The position numbers were made by a program, and so were the translations under genes. Under the pieces are notes generated by a model, which saw only the letters and a program-made list of their open reading frames with translations, was not told the DNA's origin and did not search any database. Of a stretch of DNA of 64,000 nt, positions 15,635 to 51,452 are shown in pieces (within the stretch, counting starts at the first letter, position 1; every line of letters starts with the position of its first letter). The DNA lies in NCBI GenBank assembly GCA_949751835.1, contig CATKHK010000010.1:434001-498000 (forward strand). The letters run 5' to 3'. This stretch comes from Blepharisma japonicum (Eukaryota > Ciliophora > Heterotrichea > Heterotrichida > Blepharismidae).

Positions 15635-16783
15635 ATGGAATCACGTAGACCTGATACATGGGGAGTCAAAGAAGTCGGAGACTGACTTGCTTCTCTTGAG
15701 CTTGGGCAATATAAGCAAAAATTCGAAGCTCTATCAATAGATGGGATGCTTCTTTTTGAAATGACTGACACAGATCTTATGAATGACTTAGAAGTGCCTG
15801 TTAGACTTCATAGATTCAAAATTTTAGAAAATATTAAAAAGCTCAAAGATCGCTGTCTTGCAGAGCCAAGAGAGCCAGAACAAGAAGATAACTCTCAACA
15901 GCAGGCAAATTCGCGTGCTGTTGTTCCTGAAGTGGAAGAAGTCAAATGGGAAATGCTTGTTTTAAAAGCAGTTGAAGGGCAGCTCTTAAACAACACTTTC
16001 CTTATCGGCGCGGAAGGCGCCTCTATCGGAAGAAATTCTGCATCTAATGATATTGTTATAGGTGAAAGTTTTGTGAGCAGAAAACACTGTGAAATCAGAT
16101 TTAACCAGCAGACGAACCAGTTTTTACTAACAGATACAGGCAGCACAACAGGGACTTTTCTGATGGTAAGACAGCCTTTGCATCTTGATCTAGGGATGAT
16201 GTTCCAGATGGGCTTAAGCGAATTTAAGGTAAATAACGTCAGGTATAATCCTTATGGAAAAGTCACAGCTCTTGAACTTGCTATATATGAAGGACCCGCA
16301 AGACAGAATACCATAAATGTTAACTCTGAAGGACTAACTATTGGAAGGGATACCGCAAATACGTATTGTATAAGAGAAGACTCTCAAATGAGCTCATTTC
16401 ATGGGAAAATTACGTTTGATAATGGAACTTTTTACTTGGCAGATGTAGGATCAACTAATAGAACATGGAGAAGATTAAGCGGAGAAGGACAAAAAAGTGA
16501 ACCTTATCCACTACTTGTAGGAGACGTCATCAAGATTGGATCAACTGTACTTGTAGTCCAGCTTCCTGATAGCTCGCAGTTATCAGCGGTAATGAATCCT
16601 GCTGAAAAAGAGCCTACTGAGCCAGTCCCTGAGGAATCTGCATGCAAAATTTGTTTTTCAAGAGAATTAAATGTTGCTTGTTATCCTTGTGGACATATGT
16701 TTTGCAGCTTCTGTGTATCAAAATGCAATACTTGTCCTATTTGCAGAAAGAATATACAAGATCTAGTTAAACTGTACAAATAA
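15635..16783 (+). CDS. SAM-FHA-FHA-RING protein, probable E3 ubiquitin ligase
   Basis: 382 aa, no intron. The start at 15635 is chosen because it captures a SAM domain (residues about 8-72: WGVKEVGDWLASLELGQY ... LMNDLEVPVRLHRFKIL). First FHA domain about 118-200: ASIGRNSASNDIVI, FVSRKHCEI, TDTGSTTGTF. Second FHA about 228-310: LTIGRDTANTYCI, SSFHGKI, ADVGSTNRTW. C-terminal RING: CKICFSRELNVACYPCGHMF, CSFCVSKCNTCPICRK. FHA domains bind phosphothreonine peptides, so this would ubiquitinate phosphorylated targets. The Arg, Ser and His of FHA peptide recognition are seen in FHA1; FHA2 has SSFHG where SRxH is usual. Architecture resembles CHFR-like ligases but with two FHAs and an added SAM. Confidence 0.88.
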
Positions 16784-17049: not shown

Positions 17050-20000
17050 ATGAGTGATGTTGAAAGCAACAGTGAAGATAAAAAGCCTGATCATTTTATA
17101 GAAATTCATGGATTCAACTTAAAAATTCCTGATTTAATTAAACAAATACAACTATCAGAATCTGAGCTGCAAGCTATTGAAAATAAAATAAATAAGGCTG
17201 AAAAAGACTTTGAAGAGTCTTTGACAAGCAAGCCCATAAATGTTAGACATATCTATAAATCTGCAACAGTTTCAATTTTATTTATATTTTTGTGTATATA
17301 CACAAATAGCATAGAAAGGATTTCATGGATGAGTACTCTTATGCAAAATCATTTTGAGCATCAGCCTTGAATTGGCTCAACTGCAAAATCTTTTGAAAAA
17401 ATACAAACTCAAATTGATTTAGAGAGTTATATAAGATCAGTATTCCTACCAAGTGCTTTTAATCATAAATATATAAATATTTATAACTATGTGGTTGGAG
17501 TCCGTTTTACGCTAAAAATCGCAAAAGTCGTCAGAAACCCATTTGAAGAGTATGAAGATGCAGTTTTAATTGTAAGAGAAAATCCAACTATTAGCCCTTA
17601 TGAAAGTAGTTCAGGAGAGTCAAAGAAAGAGTTATTTCCATGAAGATTTACAGATGATGGGGGATTTAATGAAGGTGGAGGATATGTATCATATTTTTTA
17701 AACATGGATTTGGATCAAGCAATGCTAAAATGGAGACAAATAAGGTCAGGGTGATTTGGAAGCCCAGAGTTTAATAGCTTAGTTGCTGAGGTTTTAATCC
17801 ACAATACAAACTTACAAACAACTCTTGATTATTATCAGGTTTTTGAAGCTAAAAGTTCTGGCTATTTATCTGTAAGTTCTGGAGTGTTAGGGATTTTTCC
17901 AGAAATGTATGAAACTTGGTCGAACTTTAAAATAGCTGTCGTAGTAATAGGTTCTATTTATATCATAGGACTGATTTGGCAGATTTATGAAGTGCTAGAT
18001 TATATTCATTGAGTTTCTATAAGATTGTGAGTAAGGTTAAAATGAGAGTTATCATGAAGTGGATTTACGAATATTTTATCTATTTGTTTGGCTTCTACAG
18101 CAGTAGCATTGTTCATTAAAATTGTGTTATGTAATATTGGCCATTATAAACTTCCTATAACAAATGAAGACGATTTCGATTCATTAGTAGAATATGCAGC
18201 GTCATATAGAGCCTTATTAAGAGTAATTTCAATAACAGTGCTATTAACTTGTTTCAAGGTTTTTATTGCCTTTGAAGAAAAATTTCCATCATTTGGCATT
18301 CTGTTTGATACAATTTCTGCAGCAAAGCATGATATCCTTTATTTTTGAATTCTGACAAGTTTTATTATCATATCTATCAGTTTAATGGGAAATTTAGGGT
18401 TTGGGATAGAACTATCAGATTTTGCAACACTAGGATATTCAGCTCTATCATTAATTAATTTAGCTTTTGGAAAATATGATATAAAGCAGCTTTCAATCGC
18501 AAATATAAAACTTTATCGAGTTTTTGTTATTTTTGTTGTATTTTACATAATATTTATTCTAATAAACAATTTTCTAGCGATTTTGTTAAGCACTTATATC
18601 AATCTGAGAAAGAAAAATTATTTGCTGGTAGAGGCTAAAGCTATGCTTTTGAAGCAGCACAGTAAAATATTTCTTGATAAAATTTTGAATTTGATTCTCT
18701 TTAGGTATAAATCTAGTATTGTAGAAGATTCTCAGGAGTATTTAAGATTGTCTTCAATCATAACTTCAGATGCAAATCAGCAAAATGAAATCAATGCGAA
18801 GCTGAGAAACCTTGAAAGTTTTATTCTCAAACAAAATAAAGTTGATTTTTTACAAGTTTTGAAATATAATTTAATCCAGCTTTCACTATTAAGAAAAGGG
18901 ACATCGTTACTCACTCGCGAAAAATATCTTAAAAAAATTCAAAATTGTGCAAGAATTATATTAACCAATAAAAAGAAAAAAGAAAAGCTCAAAAACCATT
19001 TAGAAAATCTTGTTAATTACAATTTCTACCTTTTGTTAAACGTAGTGATTGGAATTATTTACATAGCCGTATTTCTTGTTATGGTTGGCTCAAGGTTGAA
19101 AATATCAGAAACATTTTATCTTAGCAAAGCACAGTACAATAGCATTAGTACTCAAAAATTTGTATATCAAAACATAAACCAGACATTTCGAGCTATAAAA
19201 AATGAAGATTCAGCTTATGCTTATCTTCAGCAAGTTATTCTACCTTTATTTAGCAGCGAATCAGTTGCCAGTCAAAACTTTTGGATAGGAGAATCTATAG
19301 CAAGAATTACCTTCACAAGATATGACTATAGCATTAATAAAGATGGTTTTTCTAGTAAAGCAGTACCATTTTATTTACCTCTGAATCTGCCGTTATACAA
19401 AAAAGATTTCACAGGCAACAGCACTGGAATCACCTATAAATACTTAGAATCAAGAGATTCAAATACTTTCAATTGCATGGGAGGTTATAAAATCGACTTT
19501 ATTAAAGGCTCTAACTTTACCAATCTTTTTCTCCAAATCCAGAACGACAAATTAATAGGTAAAAATACAAATAAATTCATAATTGAATGAATCCTCTACA
19601 ATACAAACGCAAATATTTTTCTTTTGAACTACTTAACATTTGAAAATACAGTATCAGGATTATTAAGTACAAGCTTTTCTTCAAATCCGATTGAGCTGGA
19701 TATTTATGAATCATCTAGTTTAACATTTGGGGCTGAGATTGTTTTTTATTTAATAAGTCTTTACTATTTATTAAGGGTTGGATTTCAATGATATAGAATA
19801 CTGACAGAATTAAATCAGGATAGAAGAGATTACTATAATGGAAAATATGCAGTTAAGCGTGTATTAAAAATAATAAATGGAGAAAGTTCTGCTCAAGGGC
19901 CCTTTGAATATATTATTTGTTATTTAGCAAGAAAAGCTAGAAATCTATTTTTATGGATACATTCTTTAGGGCTCCAGCTGTTCAGAGCTTGAGTTGTTTA

Positions 20001-21735
20001 TATGAAACAAGGAATTTTTAAAGTTATGGAGCTGATATCAATTATCTTGTGTATTATAATGCTATATTATGTTGTTAGAATTTATACTAATGACTATATT
20101 TCTAATTTTAAACTCCCACCAGAAGATGTAAATTATTATAATGGATTTGAAGAGATAAATACCTATCAGAATAATTATAGGGTAATTGTGGCTGTCAACT
20201 CTATTTTCATTTTTTGTAAATTAATTGAATTCGGCAAATTCACGAAGCATTTTGGTCATTTTATTGATGTAATAAACTCAGCAAAGCTTGATTTAGGATT
20301 TTATTTAGCTATTTTTTGAGTTATATTGCTTTCATATTCACTCACGTCTTATTTGCTTGTTGGGCATATTGTGCCTCAATTTTCCAGCTTTTTATTGTCG
20401 CTCTTTTCAAGCTATATCATATTAATAGGACAGTTTAATAGCTTCAGTATGCTATCAGCAGATAGCATTTGTGGTTGTATAGTATTTCTATCAATGATTT
20501 TAATATTCAATCTACTCTTATTAAACATTTTTATAGCAATTATTGCTGCACATTATAGCAGTCTAAAAAGCAGAAATAATAAAGAAGATATCAATTTTTT
20601 CAAAAAAATAATTTTTGTTATTCACTCGAGGATTAAAGGAAAAAAATACATGGATTGACAAAAAATGGAAAATAAAGAACCAAAAATAAATGATAAAGAG
20701 AGTGAAAAAGTCTTAAGTGCTGCAGAAATTGAAATAATTAGCAAGCAATACAGTCTCGAAAAAATTCCAAAAAGAGTAAATTATTTATCGACAAGCTATT
20801 TATCATATTTAGAAGAAATTGTTAAATTTTCATTTGATTTCTTAGGGCATAATAATAGAGAAATAATCGAGCCAGCGACCTTGCAAGAAGTATCTATTTT
20901 ATCAGATGAAGAATGGCTGAGTGCATGCATTTATGAAAAATTGAGAATTTGAAAGAGGCTTTTAATTTCTCATAATATCCCAGAAATCGTGATTAGCACC
21001 CAAGAAATAAATCGAGAATTTTTATTACCTCCCAGATTAATCGATTTATGGCAAAAAACTTCTATAAAAGATAAATTATCTATGTGGATAGGAATTTTCC
21101 AGTTTGACGAACAAGAAAAAATAATGATATGAAACAAAATGATATTTACTGCAGGATGTTGATGAACTAATAATGAAGAGCAAAATCAAGAGAATCAGTA
21201 CAAATTTTGAAGCGATTTAACTCAAAGTCAAAGGAAAAAACTAATTCATGAAACTTTAAATCCTTTGCAAAAATATATAGAGAGCTATAAAAAAGCCAAA
21301 GATCCAATAGAATTTTTATTGAAAAATCAAAATTTATTAAAAGATGAAAAACTCTTGCTTTGGTTTAGCTTGTGAAAATATGAGTTTCATAAATTCAGCA
21401 TTTTTATGAATCAAAATAGCTCAAAAGAAGCAGAAATTATAGGATATTTAATGCAAGAAGAAAGGATGAAGAGTGTTTTTAGCTTAGATACAGCAGATTA
21501 TATGCTTGAAAGTATGATAGATAAAAAAATTTATGATTTTATGTGTGAAAGTGCTGTCTATCAAGCTGAATCTGTTGGGAGAAATTCATCGAAAGATAGG
21601 ATTAAAGAAACAAGACAGCAAATAAAAAATTTAAAAAAGTACTTAGGTCAACTTAAATATCAAAAACCTGCTCTAAAGAAAGAAAATAATGAAAAAATGA
21701 AATTTATAGAAGAAAACAAAGAAAATGATGATTAA
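17050..21735 (+). CDS. tandem (two-module) polycystin-like channel protein
   Basis: Single 1561-aa frame, no intron, over 30 UGA-Trp. Module 1: TM1 about residue 72, a large extracellular polycystin (TOP)-type domain 95-290 with features such as GWFGSPEFNSLVAEVLIHN and YLSVSSGVLGIFPE, TMs near 295, 340, 395, 433, pore helix FATLGYSALSLINLAFGKYD 457-480, TM6 near 497. Linker with charged helices 520-655. Module 2: TM1 about 657, extracellular domain 690-880, TMs near 893, 991, 1040, 1083, pore helix SSFLLSLFSSYIILIGQF, TM6 near 1140 (LLLLNIFIAIIAAH). Cytosolic tail 1165-1561. Polycystins (PKD2/TRPP) are cation channels with one such module and work as tetramers. The usual LGD filter reads FGK and IGQ here. 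Confidence 0.8.
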
Positions 21736-21739
21736 ATAA

Positions 21740-23464
21740 TTATGGTTTAGTAGATTTACTCATAAATACTGGCTTGAATGTACACATACTCATTTCTCCA
21801 TTTATTTTCAATTCCTTCATTTTTTTAATCTTATCTTCTTTTAGCTTAGAAGCGCTCATTAATCTTTCATAAAGATCTTTAGGCCTTGTCTTTTCATTTT
21901 TCCTAATGATTTTTTCTGATCCTAAGCAAACAAGTGACTTCCTCTCAATATTATTTTGGTCAATTTTTGAATCTCTTTTCAAAATATAAGCTTTTTCTTC
22001 AACTGTCATAGCTTTCATAAAATTCTCAAGTTTTACAATAAATTTTTGAAAATTAAGGATCTCTTTGTTTATTTCTAAATCATTAAAAAATACTGATAAG
22101 CCCAGTGCTGTTTTTGGGTCTAAACTGTCTTTATATATATGGTCACCAGAAATTAACCCATCTTTATCAGAATCCAGTATATTAAATAATTTTTCATATT
22201 GTTTTTCTTTAAATATCTCATAAATAATATTTGAATTTTCGCTTGATTTTGGAGTCATTGCTGTTGCTTTTCAAAATTCATCATTTAATTCATTTGTTTG
22301 TTCAATTATTGAAGCCTGCCTATCCTTTTGGGAATATAAATGTTCTCAAATTGGTACATTTAAACCTTCTCTATCCTTAGACAAAATTTGTGGATGAAAA
22401 AAGTCTTGGCCAGTAGATTTATCTACAAGGACATCAGATTTATGCCTCAAATGCTCCATTTTTGTATCAAATGCAAATTTTGTGTTATAAAGCCTGCTAA
22501 AAACTTCACTAGTATTCTTTGAAGTGCTTTTTTTGGTTGATCTTGGACTATTCAATGAAGTCATTGATTTCTCTGAATTTATGCTACTTCTTGCACGCCT
22601 TATCTCTGCTTCTTTATATAAATAGTCTTTCTCTACTATTCTGCTTTTAGTTCTAGAAGTTTCTATAATTTTTGGAGTAAAAGAACATTCTTTAAGCTCC
22701 TCCTTAATTAGGACCTCTTTAAGATCGTTTAGCTTTTGTTCATAATCTTTAGCTTTATCCAGAAGTAAATCTTCAGTTTTTTCAAAGCTCCTTCTTACCA
22801 TCAAAGTCGACGCTGGGTCGACTTTTGGCTTAAAAGAATTTTCATTTATTTTTTCTTCATCTCTTATTTTTATTTCTTTAGCACTCTTTTTAAGCTCTTC
22901 CTTCTTACGAATTCCATTTGCATAAAGCCATTCTCCATGATTAATAGATGAAGGTCTCGATTTTTTCTCAATGTCTGGTGTTGGAGATTGCAGAGGCGTT
23001 TTTCTATTCCGTTTATATAATCTTTCGTAAACATCTTGATTATTTAACCTTTTTGCAATTTCTCTAGACTTTTTGTCAATTTGTGGAGAGTGTCCTTTAT
23101 CTATAGTTTTTCTTAAATCTGCATCATTCTGAGGTGATTTAGTTGGCGTTGATAAAATTTCTTCTAACTTAATCATGTCAGGCGAAGTGGATATCGCACG
23201 ATTTTCTATCAATTCTTTATTTGATTTAATTAACTTTGTTAATGATTTCTCAACAGTTTCGTTTAAACGATTTTTCTTTACGAATTTTTTGGCTAAAATT
23301 GAAGGATCATCGTTTGAATGGATAATTAATTTTTCTTTTTTATCATTTCCTATCTCAATTTTTAGTGTAAAAAGTTCTGGGTTTTTTAGACTTTTGCAGG
23401 CAATTGGGGATTGATCTGGAATATTAAAATCAATAACATCTGACAAATCACTGTTTTGCTCCAT
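21740..23464 (-). CDS. EF-hand scaffold-like protein with repeated F-x-P motifs
   Basis: 574 aa, one exon. The N-terminus (residues about 30-60: LFTLKIEIGNDKKEKLIIHS ... AKKFVKKNRL) matches the short beta-grasp-like module often found at the start of ciliate cytoskeletal proteins. The middle is charged and repeats short motifs NSFKPKV, CSFTPKI, CTFKPVF and the RLYKRN / RLYNTK / RLMSASK type. One EF-hand loop, DSDKDGLISGDH, near residue 430. The tail is basic. The stop is only 4 nt from the channel gene stop, convergent. Function unknown; probably a calcium-responsive structural protein (inference). Confidence 0.75.
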
Positions 23465-40717: not shown

Positions 40718-43700
40718 ATGAAATTCCTTTCACTAAAATCAATCTTAATGGCTTCTGAAAGTATATTGACAAAATCAAATCAGAGTAATCAAGATTTTGG
40801 TGAAACAAATAAGCCAAATGACATGGAAAATCTTGCAAGTAAAAGAGAAAATTACAATAAAAAATTGCAAGAGCAAAATATCTGTGAAGCAGTCAAGGAG
40901 CCAATTGAGATTTTGCATTGAAGCGATAATAGCACTCATTCTTTTGCTCAATCTCAGATAGAAAATCCTCAAGAATTTATTGATTGTAAACGCAGAAATA
41001 TTGAAGATTTCCATTCCAGTAGCCAAAACATGCTTAAAAATCCTTCAAACACTATAAAAGAACATCAAAATATCGAAAATGGCACTAAGAAAGACAATAG
41101 TTTTCAATTAAATGAAATGAAATCACAATTTTGTAGCTTTCCTATCGAAAATCACACTGCCTCTGACACAGATCTTATAGGACAGAAAATTATTGAAAAC
41201 AAAAATAGCAATAACTCTGACTATGAATTTATATCAGATTTTGCATCTTTCCATCTACCCAAAATAAATAAACCCAATCCACTTCACAAACCAACTCGAG
41301 CAATAAAAAAAGAAACCCCAAAAACTGAGAAGCCCAAATCTTTTATATCAAAATTCACAAGTGTGTTTTCAAAAGGAGCGCCAGAAGACAAGCCACCAGA
41401 AATGAAATTAGGAAACTCTGGAGGTTTTTATTATGATAAAACAAAAAAGAAATGGGTCATTGAAGGAAAAGAAGAAGAAAAAGAAGAAGATTTGGCACCT
41501 CCACCCATAGATTTTAAAAATACAACTACAGGATCTCAAAAAAGAAGACAAATGTATGTAGACACAATTGGACAGACTTCATTTAACGAATCTACCTATA
41601 AACCAGCAGACCATGAAGAGCCCGAAGTTTTTGATGAAGAATTTAAACCAGACCCAAAACCAGAAGAAAATTATGAGACCTTAAGTGAAAAAATGGAAAT
41701 TAGCCAAATAAATGAAGGGGTTAAGGAAGAAACTAAACAAGAAGAAAACGCTCTTGCAGGCTTTAAAGAATATAGTGGCTCAGAAACCCCTCCAAGCGAA
41801 TTAAAAGAAGACTCAAAAACCGAAGAAATAAAGCAAAATGAAAAACTTATTGCCAAACTTAAAGAAGAATTATGAGAGTTAAATTGGAAGTCAAGTGAAA
41901 AAATTGAAGAGCTTTCTGCAATAAATGAAGAATTATACCAGCAAATTTCGTTTTTAAATGATTTAGGGGTGCAAAATGAATTGAAAATTCAAGACTTGAA
42001 TTGAAGACTACAAACAGAAGTAGACAGTAAATCAATAATTCAAGAAGACTTAGAAAATATGAGAGATACAATAAATTTATTAACAAAAGAAATTTCCTGC
42101 CTAAAATCGTCAGACCCAGTATTTTTGTCTGAAGATGCTGATCCTTATGAGCTTCAGCTACAAATTGCTCAGCTAGAAAACGAAAAATTACAGTTTCAAT
42201 CAAATCTTGCAACTAAAGACTTAGAAATTGCCAATTTAAACTCCAGGCTAATTGAGACAGACACCAATGTTGGGCTTCTTTCGAAACAAATTGAGAGGCA
42301 AAAGCATGAATATGAGCTAAAAGAGCAATACTTTACTGAAGAAAGGCAAAGAGCACAGCAAGCTGTGTCATCATTTCGGTCACAGCTGACACAAATAAAA
42401 GAGCTACATAGAGTTGATTTAGATGAGCTTGAACATCTAAGAAGCTTGGTTGAAGAAAATGATATAAAAATAGGAATTTTAAGTAAGTCTAAAAGCAAAG
42501 CTGATATTGAGTTAAAAAAAGCAATATTTGATCAGCAGCAAGCAGAAGATGAGCTCCTTGAAGCAACCAAAAAATTAAAAGAAATCGAAGTATTTCGGAG
42601 AAATTTGGAACTGGAAATCCATCAGCTGAAAATGGAATTATTATCAGAACAAAATGAAGATTTTATAAGGGAGCTGCAATCTCAGTTACAGTCAGCAGAA
42701 ACTGAAAAGGTTAAGCTGCAAACTTTAGTTATTGAAAGTAAGAGAGAGGCCCAAAATATAAAACACCAACTTTCAGATGCTGAAAAAAGGCTAAAGTTTG
42801 ATGCTGATGAAAATGCTGCAAAAATTCAAAGTCTTGCAAAGGAAATGAAAGAAAAAGCTAAAGAGAGTGAAATAAGAGAGACTGAAAATAGGAAAATGAA
42901 AGAAATTGAAAAAGATTTGGAAGATAAAATTGGTATGATGAGGAATGAAATTAAAGGAATGAATGAGAGTTTGAATAAAAAAATTAATATAATTGCTGAA
43001 AAAGAGGAAGAAATAGCTGAAATGGCTAAAAAAATAGATAGACTTGAAAAAGAATTAATTGAAAAGGAGAATGAAATTAATCAAATTCAAGAAAATCTGT
43101 TCAAAATCCAGCATGAAAAAGATGAACTTTGTAAAATTTTAGAAGATAATCGTGAAAATTATGGAGAAAAGCTCGCAAATGAAATTTCGCAGAATTCTGA
43201 GCTAAGCCTACAGATAAACGAGCTAAAGGAAAATATTACAAATCAAGAATTAGAAATCAATAACCTTAAAGCAGATATAGAAGAAATCTCAAAAAAATCA
43301 GAAGAAGCAATCTCACAAGAAAAAATAAATAATTTCAAGCTCAACAAACTCTTAGAAGAAACTAAAAAGGAATTTGATGAAAAAGAAAAAAACGAAAAAA
43401 AACTGCTAGAGCAAATATCAGAACTTAAGGAAGAAGCTCAGCAAATGGAATTAGAACTGGAAAAAATTGAAGAAGAGAAAAATTCTGCCATTGAAAGCGC
43501 AGTTTCTTTACAAAAAGAACTTGAAAAATTAGAAGAAGAGAAAAACCAAGGCGCAGAAAGCTTGGAATCTTTAAAGCATGAATTTGATGAAAAATTGTCG
43601 GAAAATGAAATAAAAATTGATGTATTGGATAAGCAAAATAAATTGTTAATCGAAGATATCGCATCTAAAGATAGAAAAATACAAGAAATTGATAGCCAGT

Positions 43701-45178
43701 ATGAAGAATTATTAAAAGAAAATATAGAATTAAAAGAAAGCCATGAGATTGAAGTAGAAGATCTGAATTCAGTAATAAACGACTATATTGGAGCTAATGG
43801 GCAATTAAGAAACGAAGTGAAAACTCTCAAAGACGAAAATTCAAAGTTATCTGAAGAGTTTTTGGCCAGTAAAGACTTAATCACAGAAAATAATGAAACA
43901 ATTCAAGAATTAAACAGTGAAATAACACAAATTTCAAGTGAGTGTGAAAAATATAAAGGTGAAATAAATCTTTTGAGATCACAAGAACAGACATATATTT
44001 CAACAATTAAAGATTTAAGTGACAAATTAGATAATTGGAGTGCTCAAAATCAAGAAGTCCTTGATAAAATTGAAGAAGATAAAAATACCCTGATATCAAA
44101 AAAAGATGAAGAACTTACAACTTTGCAAAGCCAATTCAAACAAGCTGAAGAAGATTTAATTTCTGCTTCAAATGAAAGAAATGAGCTACTGCAAAATCTC
44201 ACAAATATCAAGGAAGAATTAAGACTAAACCAAGAAAAACTTTCTGAGCTACAAAGCTTATTCCTTGAAAAAAATAATTTAATTAAAGAGCTTAACTGCA
44301 CAATTGCTTACAAAGATTTAGAGCTCTGTGAAGAAAGAGAAAAATACGAAGAACAAATTTCGCAAATTAAAGAGGAGCAGAACGAAAATTTAAGTGGAGA
44401 TATAAAATTGTTAGAAAAAGAAATAAATGAACTTAATGAAAAAAATAAAGGAATAAGTAAAGAACTGCAAGAAGTAAAGGAGAGTGACTCGAATAAAAAT
44501 GACACTATATCGTATTTACAAAGTTTAACAGCTAATCTTAAAGACCAGCTGAATAGGAAAGACCAAGAATTAAAAGTCCAAAAAGAGGAAATTAAGTCTA
44601 TCAATGAAATAAATGCAGGGCATGAAAAACAGATAAGATTGCTAAAAGCCAAAAGCAATACAAATACTGAGTTGGAAGATTATAAAAGAAAAAATGAAGA
44701 GTTATCTGAAGAAATAAAATCTATGAATAAAGACATTGAAGATTTGTATGAGCGCAGATGGAAAGAGCAGCAAGATGCTACTGCGAATCTTGAAAAACAA
44801 AAGCTAAGCTATGAAAAAATGATAGAAGAGCTAAAAACTGACTTTGAAAAGCAAAAGCTGTATTATGAAAATCTCATAGAAGAAAATAAAAATCCAGAGA
44901 AGAAGAGCGAGGTTGAAAATGTGAGTACTAGTGAAGAAAAGGAGCTCTTTTCAGAAGTACTCATTAATGAACAAAAACTAAATAAAATATCACAAGAAGA
45001 TGTACAGATTCAAATTCAAGAGCCAGCACAAATGCAAAAATTGGTGACAGAGACTGTTGAGGCGATAAAACATCAAGCAGAAAAGCAGCAAGCTTCACAA
45101 GTTCCTCAAGAGTCTGAAGGTTGGTTTACATCTCTGTTGGGATCAATCTTTTTAACAGATAGAGAAAGAGGGCAATAA
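40718..45178 (+). CDS. giant golgin-like coiled-coil protein with Sec16-type motif
   Basis: 1486 aa, no intron. The start could also be the second Met at 40748 (MASESILT). Residues 1-220 are disordered. A segment near 230, KLGNSGGFYYDKTKKKWVIE followed by APPPI, copies the conserved C-terminal motif of Sec16 (LGxxxxFYYDxxxKxWV). From about 385 to 1430 the protein is almost continuous heptad-repeat coiled coil. It ends SEGWFTSLLGSIF, a hydrophobic tail that may bind membrane. Combination suggests an ER-exit-site or Golgi tether; the neighbouring Rab-like gene fits but may be coincidence. A piece near 40843-40890 is duplicated at 49815. Confidence 0.8.
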
Positions 45179-47584: not shown

Positions 47585-48148
47585 TTAAACATCTTGGTCA
47601 CTGTAACTTCCACATCTCCAAATATCGTTCTCATCGCTTCCTTCATACGCAGTGACTTCTTGCTGGCCTTTAGCGTTGTCATGACCCCTATGAGAATGCA
47701 AGGCGTGGTTGCTGTTACAGTGAATAAGCCTGGTGCGGTATGATATATACCAAGGAGTTCCATCCTCGTGATCAGTTTCGACCAACCAATCGTCATTTTC
47801 ATCACCCACTCCATTATTCCCAAATGCGCTTACTTCTTGTTGTCCGGATGATGGTGATCGAATTCCTGGGGAAGAGTGGAGGTTTTTTCCAGTTGCTATA
47901 TGTTCTAGCCTGACTTTAGATTTATTCATGATGACAGTGCCTTTAAGTTGGCGCCAAGTATCGCCCATATAATTGGGTCCTTTAACAATAAACCATGAAT
48001 AATCATCAGCCACCCTCTGGCTTGTAACTTCCTGCTGGCCTGATCCTGTTGTATAGTTAACAGGTTCAGAGCGAAGATAAGTACCAGTTGCATGGTGGTA
48101 TAACTGTAACCGAGCTCCATAAGTAACAGGAGGAGTTCCGTGAGACAT
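47585..48148 (-). CDS. MIR-domain protein, copy A
   Basis: 187 aa, intact. MIR (protein mannosyltransferase, IP3R, RyR) beta-trefoil repeats: YGARLQLYHHATGTYLRS, SGQQEVTSQ, VRLEHIATGKNLHSSPG, NDDWLVETDH, TRLIHCNSNHALHSHRGH, GQQEVTAYEG. SDF2-type MIR proteins are ER-lumenal, but no signal peptide or KDEL is present, so this one is probably cytosolic or the family acts differently here. 78% or so of residues match copy B by eye and the length is identical. Ends UAA. Several UGA codons are read as Trp. Intact copy in a decaying array. Confidence 0.85.
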   Translation of the reverse strand: MSHGTPPVTYGARLQLYHHATGTYLRSEPVNYTTGSGQQEVTSQRVADDYSWFIVKGPNYMGDTWRQLKGTVIMNKSKVRLEHIATGKNLHSSPGIRSPSSGQQEVSAFGNNGVGDENDDWLVETDHEDGTPWYISYRTRLIHCNSNHALHSHRGHDNAKGQQEVTAYEGSDENDIWRCGSYSDQDV

Positions 48149-50888: not shown

Positions 50889-51452
50889 TTAAACATTGAT
50901 GTCGTTGTAGTTCCAACAAGTCCAAATGTCGTTTTCATCTCTTCCAGAATACGCAGTGACTTCTTGCTGGCCTTGAGCGTTATTATGCCCCCTATGAGTA
51001 TGCAAAACGCATCTAGATCTAACGTGCATGAGCCTGGTATAGTATGATGAATGCCAAGGAGTTCCAGGATCGTGATCAGTTTGAACTTCCCAATCGTCAT
51101 TATCGTCGCCTATTCCATTATTCCCATATAGGCTCACTTCTTGTTGTCCAGATGATGGTGATGGAATTCCTGGGGACGAATGGAGATTTTTTCCAGTTGC
51201 TCTATGCTCGAGTCTGACAATGCTCCCATTTATGATTGGATTTCCTTTAAGTTGGCGCCAAGCGTCGCCCATAGAATGAGGTCCTTTGACAATAAACCAC
51301 GAATTTTCATCAGCTGATCCCTGGGCTGTAACTTGCCGTTGCTGAGTTCCTGTTGTATAGTTAATAGGATCAGAGCGAATAATAGATCGAGTTTCACGGT
51401 GAATGAGCTGAAAATGGGCTCCATAGGTGACAGGAGGAGTTCCGTGAGACAT
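50889..51452 (-). CDS. MIR-domain protein, copy B
   Basis: 187 aa, same length as copy A when started at MSHGTPPVTYG. An upstream in-frame ATG at 51468 would add six residues (MAIILN) absent from copy A, so it is not chosen. MIR trefoil motifs: YGAHFQLIHRETRSIIRS, VRLEHRATGKNLHSSPG, DWEVQTDHDPGTPWHSS, TRLMHVRSRCVLHTHRGH, GQQEVTAYSGRD. No signal peptide. Ligand unknown; MIR domains usually bind glycans or mediate protein contacts. Intact, with duplicated flanks on both sides. Confidence 0.85.
   Translation of the reverse strand: MSHGTPPVTYGAHFQLIHRETRSIIRSDPINYTTGTQQRQVTAQGSADENSWFIVKGPHSMGDAWRQLKGNPIINGSIVRLEHRATGKNLHSSPGIPSPSSGQQEVSLYGNNGIGDDNDDWEVQTDHDPGTPWHSSYYTRLMHVRSRCVLHTHRGHNNAQGQQEVTAYSGRDENDIWTCWNYNDINV

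Follow-up and report, generated by a model that had tools for sequence, protein, structure and literature searches.

The window analysed here is a 64,000-nucleotide stretch of the Blepharisma japonicum genome (GenBank assembly GCA_949751835.1; contig CATKHK010000010.1, positions 434,001 to 498,000). At window positions 17050 to 21735 on the forward strand it carries a frame of 1561 codons running from ATG to TAA, in which TGA is read as tryptophan at 19 positions and no internal TAA or TAG occurs. This single frame almost certainly carries two homologous polycystin modules, A and B, and its product is predicted from the sequence to be a membrane protein of ~180 kDa, a size estimated from its length. 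The original prediction, that two polycystin channels are fused here in one polypeptide, expected two matches to the Pfam profile PKD_channel (PF08016; cut-off 22.4 bits). Two stretches of the protein were found to match, and the match was not confined to one half, as half A alone scored 34.5 bits and half B alone 52.1 bits. The whole protein scored 70.6 bits with PKD_channel and 21.7 bits with Ion_trans, the latter under its cut-off of 25. Polycystin_dom (PF20519; threshold 23.6 bits) was matched by half B alone (23.8 bits) and narrowly missed by the whole protein (22.9 bits). No Pfam match to this domain was found in half A, where the ectodomain shows only by profile-profile alignment.

The finding of a tandem gene depends on the reading of TGA as tryptophan, because under translation table 11 the sole open reading frame (ORF) of at least 150 amino acids (aa) inside 17050 to 21735 is one of 401 aa from the middle of the gene. 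In Blepharisma stoltei, the telomere repeat is CCCTAACA, UGA encodes tryptophan and introns are 15-16 bp long (PMC9942806). When the genome (45.2 Mb in 224 contigs) was searched with this repeat as a 24-mer, 77 forward and 91 reverse matches were identified, and those listed lay either within ~420 bases of a contig start or at a contig end (C4, C6); the reversed-pattern control gave 0 and 0 matches. A search of the genome with the whole protein identified four further relatives of full length, with 35-38% identity; in each, a single open frame spans both modules, and these frames contain 6, 10, 16 and 19 TGA codons but are otherwise free of stops. As the telomere repeat of B. stoltei is present and the paralogue frames are otherwise free of stops, the reading of TGA as tryptophan is supported. 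A further, shorter gene on contig C65 (1332 aa) likewise combines two modules in a single frame. The window gene and its product are called T1 below and the others T2 (contig C143), T3 and T4 (both on C4, ~7 kb apart), T5 (C29) and T6 (C65); the five further tandem genes each consist of one open frame of 1332-1610 aa.

Halves A and B of T1 are 25% identical over 312 aa (BLASTP, E 5e-7), and a profile of five A halves aligned with one of five B halves over 440 columns with a probability of 99.2%. Both were also aligned to a profile built from human polycystin-2 and four single-module genes of the same genome; this alignment covered 436 columns for A and 450 for B, with a probability of 99.6% each, and for both halves it runs from transmembrane helix S1 to S6 and includes the ectodomain. 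Reversed A and B profiles reached probabilities of 0.5 and 0.6% against the same profile. Alignment of the A and B profiles to two CaV-type repeats and another channel gave probabilities of no more than 79%, over no more than 129 columns within S4-S6, except for the weakest of these comparisons, A against C26, which covered 39 columns elsewhere. The best matches in the PDB (hmmsearch with profiles) were PKD2L1 for A (2.7e-13) and polycystin-2 for B (3.8e-33). When the T1 sequence alone was searched against the PDB with phmmer, the best polycystin stretches among the matches listed were in half B only, and a profile was needed for half A.

Family-averaged hydropathy over five paralogues placed six main helices in A (aa 67-85, 295-313, 342-360, 388-406, 429-447 and 494-512) and six in B (aa 661-679, 893-911, 993-1011, 1046-1064, 1086-1104 and 1147-1165), leaving aside weaker windows that overlap the main ones. 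In half B, the S2-S3 region contains an extra hydrophobic stretch (aa 967-985). The six helices, the pore loop and the ectodomain alignment suggest that each half is a channel module in polycystin order, and the charged linker said to join the two was also found (28 lysine and arginine and 12 acidic residues) and is conserved among five paralogues (Table 1). T1 has five N-glycosylation sequons, of which the predicted B ectodomain contains three (residues 710, 790 and 822) and the C-terminal region two (residues 1456 and 1512). The A ectodomain has none in T1 and one or two in T2-T6, and none occur in any of the linkers. This placement gives weak support to the predicted topology.

Table 1. Predicted features of the tandem polycystin gene T1 (window coordinates)
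Feature	Residues (aa)	Coordinates	Strand	Basis or remark
Whole gene, two polycystin modules	1-1561	17050..21735	+	Single frame, TGA read as tryptophan
N-terminal segment, predicted cytosolic	1-66	17050..17247	+	Hydropathy; low conservation in residues 1-40
Module A, S1 to S6	67-512	17248..18585	+	PKD_channel 34.5 bits; PKD2L1 2.7e-13; hhalign 436 columns
Module A, predicted extracellular polycystin/TOP-like domain	86-294	17305..17931	+	Profile-profile alignment; no Pfam Polycystin_dom
Module A, pore loop	448-493	18391..18528	+	Filter triad FGK, aa 473-475 (18466-18474)
Module A, S6	494-512	18529..18585	+	Asparagine aligned to the polycystin-2 S6 gate asparagine kept
Linker, predicted cytosolic	513-660	18586..19029	+	28 K+R, 12 D+E; common to five paralogues
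Module B, S1 to S6	661-1165	19030..20544	+	PKD_channel 52.1 bits; polycystin-2 3.8e-33; hhalign 450 columns
Module B, predicted extracellular polycystin domain	680-892	19087..19725	+	Polycystin_dom at threshold; three sequons
Module B, pore loop	1105-1146	20362..20487	+	Filter triad IGQ, aa 1126-1128 (20425-20433)
C-terminal region, predicted cytosolic	1166-1561	20545..21732	+	No Pfam family over cut-off

The pore loops could be aligned in all 12 modules of the six tandem proteins. The asparagine in S6 that we take to be the gate residue of polycystin-2 is kept in all six B modules and in four of the six A modules. The filter triads aligned to the LGD of polycystin-2 and PKD2L1 are, for A and B respectively, FGK/IGQ in T1, LAI/LGQ in T2, FGL/IGK in T3, FGI/IGN in T4, YGE/LCY in T5 and FDN/IGE in T6, where module A has an extra residue and its triad could also be read as LFD. 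The third position of the triad is therefore K/Q, I/Q, L/K, I/N, E/Y and N/E across the six paralogues. As the LGD filter, a feature of the PKD2-like subfamily, is lacking, T1 was not filed as a PKD2 orthologue. Lack of the acidic triad residue is not specific to the tandem genes, as four of five single-module genes in the same genome are also without it (triads FGN, LGN, IGH and LGL, the fifth being LGD). In PKD2L1, replacement of D523 by A or S abolished the current and D523N lowered the relative calcium permeability 18-fold (PMC6056229). The T1 channel, if it conducts, is predicted to be less calcium-selective than PKD2L1. A mixed filter with lysine, as would be formed in T1, has a precedent in the asymmetric, lysine-guarded 'KDDD' filter of PKD1L3/PKD2L1 (PMC8357825), though the lysine in the A triad of T1 is not in an exactly equivalent place.

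Mean pairwise identity among T1-T5, in bins of 40 residues, was 0.54-0.55 across aa 521-640, which covers most of the linker, and bins from residue 41 to 1200 span 0.33-0.63. When the linker of T1 alone was used to search the genome, T2-T5 were matched (E 1.7e-28 to 2.4e-25, 43-46% identity) and there was no match besides these, T6 not being found. For the T3/T4 pair, the ratio of nonsynonymous to synonymous substitution (dN/dS) was 0.14 in module A, 0.10 in the linker, 0.17 in module B and 0.17 in the C-terminus. The sequences thus indicate that the linker matches the modules in conservation and that purifying selection acts on it in the T3/T4 pair, which argues against transcripts that stop within the linker and makes a pair of separate proteins unlikely. 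A coiled coil or EF-hand in the linker was considered and is not claimed, as no computed result favoured it. Synonymous divergence between T3 and T4 is 0.13 in the linker, whereas the modules and the C-terminal region reach 0.53-0.56, and the linker looks like a patch of gene conversion between the two C4 genes.

The last 346 aa of T1 (20695-21732, forward strand), used as a genome query, found relatives in T2-T5 only and not in T6, so that the conserved linker and C-terminal region are shared by five of the six paralogues. A profile of these 346 aa gave three hits in the PDB, none under E 0.1, and a Pfam scan of the C-terminal region of T1 found no family over its cut-off. Among the C-terminal regions of five members, Pfam scans matched bZIP_1 in two (best 9.7e-05) and a further seven families in one each. 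PKD2 has a C-terminal EF-hand and a coiled coil; Pfam scans of T1 and of the C-terminal regions gave no match to an EF-hand. It is possible that the 346-aa region is a new cytosolic domain.

In a profile search of the genome, PKD_channel had 35 matches, consisting of the 12 tandem modules, all over the cut-off, 5 in other polycystin-domain genes (C66, C65 at 144 kb, C84, C39 and C10 at 387 kb), 13 coinciding with Ion_trans repeats and 5 in other or unclear channels (C12, C11, C48, C49 and C78). A sixth other polycystin-domain gene, on C43, had no PKD_channel match in this search. No second PKD_channel match was found near any of these six genes in the same search, which did not model introns. 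Ion_trans was over its cut-off in T2, T3, T4 and T6 (45.7, 55.6, 40.9 and 75.6 bits) but was outscored by PKD_channel in each (96.2, 118.7, 101.3 and 130.5 bits). Loci on C6, C26 and other contigs were dropped as candidates for further tandem polycystins, as their matches coincide with CaV-like series of Ion_trans repeats. Such series were seen on C6, C16, C26, C51, C71, C95 and C159, several of them adjoining on C16 and C71, and this set of multi-repeat Ion_trans channels is large for a ciliate. As expected for a ciliate gene, searches with two peptide patterns only gave 58 pattern matches in viral contigs and 27 in bacterial and archaeal genome contigs, of which none was confirmed.

Three maximum-likelihood trees were built with five single-module genes and human polycystin-2, to which PKD2L1 was added in two; C39 was omitted, its channel being split over two short frames. 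The 12 tandem modules formed one clade in all three (support 97/96, 97/98 and 98/97), in a sample made up of this genome and human channels and with long branches flagged for the single-module genes on C43, C84 and C66 and, in some trees, for T6A. As far as the sampled relatives show, the family therefore appears to have arisen by duplication of one module and not by the joining of unrelated channels. The A halves of T1-T5 and the B halves of T1-T5 each had 100/100 support, and the branching order of T2-T4 is identical in both halves, so the simplest explanation for T1-T5 is a single ancestral fused gene, both modules of which derive from the duplication of one module. The placement of T6 was examined with the approximately unbiased (AU) test, which gave p values of 0.154 and 0.21 when all A halves were kept in one group and 0.16, 0.37 and 0.357 when all B halves were. 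These data are compatible both with a shared and with a separate fusion event for T6.

Other genes were noted in the window. A convergent ORF of 574 aa (21740-23464, reverse strand) ends 4 bases beyond the stop codon of T1, which is very tight packing, and had no Pfam match at E 0.001. An ORF at 15635-16783 (forward strand) encodes a protein that combines a SAM domain and a RING finger with two FHA stretches. Two ORFs of 187 aa with MIR domains (47585-48148 and 50889-51452, reverse strand), ~2.7 kb apart, are perhaps a local duplicate, and an ORF of 1486 aa (40718-45178, forward strand) lies in a stretch of strong AT skew (up to 0.38) and had no Pfam match at E 0.001.

Known polycystins have one module per chain. 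No two-module polycystin was found among the open-access full-text papers listed, and a direct phrase search returned none, preprints and eukaryotic protein databases lying outside this search. The view that no polycystin of this build has been described thus agrees with that literature, and databases may contain entries with two PKD_channel domains that have drawn no comment. The module layout of T1 (S1, large ectodomain, S2-S6 and pore loop) is like that of polycystin-2 and PKD2L1, with the PDB matches given above. However, those channels have one module per chain, are homotetramers and carry an LGD filter (PMC6056229), whereas T1 has two modules and no LGD. Paramecium Pkd2 is, like T1, a ciliate TRPP channel, and PKD2a, PKD2b and a distant PKD2L have been reported; it is described as a six-helix protein, and no two-module form is mentioned in the sections available (PMC6627415). 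PKD1-type proteins have eleven helices (PMC6627415), whereas the two channel modules of T1 together have twelve main ones. A polycystin from an oomycete, which contains ryanodine-receptor domains, differs from T1 in architecture (PMC7399828).

Two unlike modules in one pore, as proposed for T1, are found in the PKD1L3/PKD2L1 and PKD1/PKD2 heteromers. Two-pore channels assemble with two chains per pore. Like T1, they have two six-helix repeats per chain (PMC7312350), though these are of the voltage-gated (Ion_trans) type, whereas for the tandem repeats PKD_channel is the best-scoring profile and ectodomains are present. Polycystin channels are tetrameric, either as homotetramers (PMC6056229) or as heterotetramers (PMC8357825). 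As a polycystin pore needs four modules, a 2:2 pseudo-tetramer of two T1 chains, as in two-pore channels, is the most likely assembly by analogy. One mature chain would have both ectodomains on the outer side of the membrane, with the N-terminus, the linker and the C-terminal region all cytosolic, and two such chains would form one cation channel with alternating modules (A-B-A-B) and a mixed filter of FGK from A and IGQ from B. That the tandem polycystins form a family of such two-chain A-B-A-B channels, the 2:2 assembly included, we consider probable. A fuller history, in which one polycystin module underwent duplication and fusion, so that pores became obligate two-chain assemblies with a mixed filter fixed at 2:2, and the fused gene then gave rise to at least six paralogues whose filter pairs differ, may or may not hold, and we judge the two outcomes evenly balanced.

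Several observations weigh against this two-chain channel and its history. The acidic residue of LGD is missing from both modules of T1, which makes conduction uncertain, and the solved PKD1L3/PKD2L1 heteromer is 1:3 and not 2:2 (PMC8357825). That heteromer is formed from separate genes, whereas T1 is one gene with a 1:1 ratio within the chain. AlphaFold models of each half, with the other half as the sole companion sequence, were uninformative (mean predicted local distance difference test scores 36.0 and 37.6; predicted template modelling scores 0.22 and 0.23). The dN/dS ratio is well measurable in the T3/T4 pair only, as the T2/T3, T2/T4 and T1/T3 pairs are mostly saturated at synonymous sites. 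In the trees, an A clade that includes T6A had 77/77 support in one and was not recovered in the two others, and a pairing of T6A with T6B was not rejected (AU p 0.161).

In one alternative, which is compatible with two chains per pore, labour is divided between the modules: B conducts, A is a PKD1-like regulatory partner with an abnormal filter, and the fusion fixes a 1:1 pair. The A halves match channel profiles less well (34.5 compared with 52.1 bits in T1) and have the weaker best PDB match (2.7e-13 compared with 3.8e-33), their triads are irregular (FGK, LAI, FGL, FGI, YGE and FDN) and two of six lack the S6 gate asparagine. However, the B triads are irregular too (IGQ, LGQ, IGK, IGN, LCY and IGE), in the A halves the pore loop is complete and, like S6, in register, and A is the more conserved half (mean column identity 71%, compared with 65% for B). 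PKD1 has large extracellular parts (PLAT/GAIN/REJ), none of which was found in Pfam scans of the tandem proteins. We regard such a division as possible but unlikely.

It is also doubtful that the two modules of one chain enter different tetramers (A with A and B with B), or tetramers with single-module polycystins, so that the fusion would tether pores into clusters instead of halving the number of subunits. The linker is long (148 aa) and the six other polycystin-domain genes could supply partners, but nothing in the sequence points to such an arrangement, and two-repeat channels of known structure, the two-pore channels, pair their repeats inside one pore. A protein with the polycystin fold that conducts poorly or not at all, serving as an anchor or sensor such as a ciliary membrane tether, seems improbable. 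The acidic triad residue is absent from all eight modules of T1-T4, and its loss through the alanine or serine substitution abolished the PKD2L1 current (PMC6056229). However, the triad does contain an acidic residue in T5A, T6A and T6B, all six A halves have an aspartate or glutamate one or two places past the triad, and the S6 gate asparagine is mostly retained. Finally, it is scarcely credible that two separate genes or proteins have been joined by chance, by assembly error or by the reading of TGA as tryptophan, for although the frame is interrupted under table 11, the tryptophan reading fits the genome, the same single-frame arrangement recurs at six loci, and the linker, which in T1 has a single methionine (aa 532), is conserved, with purifying selection acting on it in the T3/T4 pair.

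If the two-chain A-B-A-B channel is the correct interpretation, the tandem polycystins would be a further case, within the TRP superfamily, of the duplication route behind two-pore and four-repeat channels. Mixed polycystin pores are hard to dissect, and the channel activity of PKD1/PKD2 has been called controversial (PMC8357825). A chain with two unlike modules would fix their ratio genetically, and the filter and gate residues of each module could therefore be changed separately, with the one-module relatives in the same genome serving as a comparison for the tandem family.

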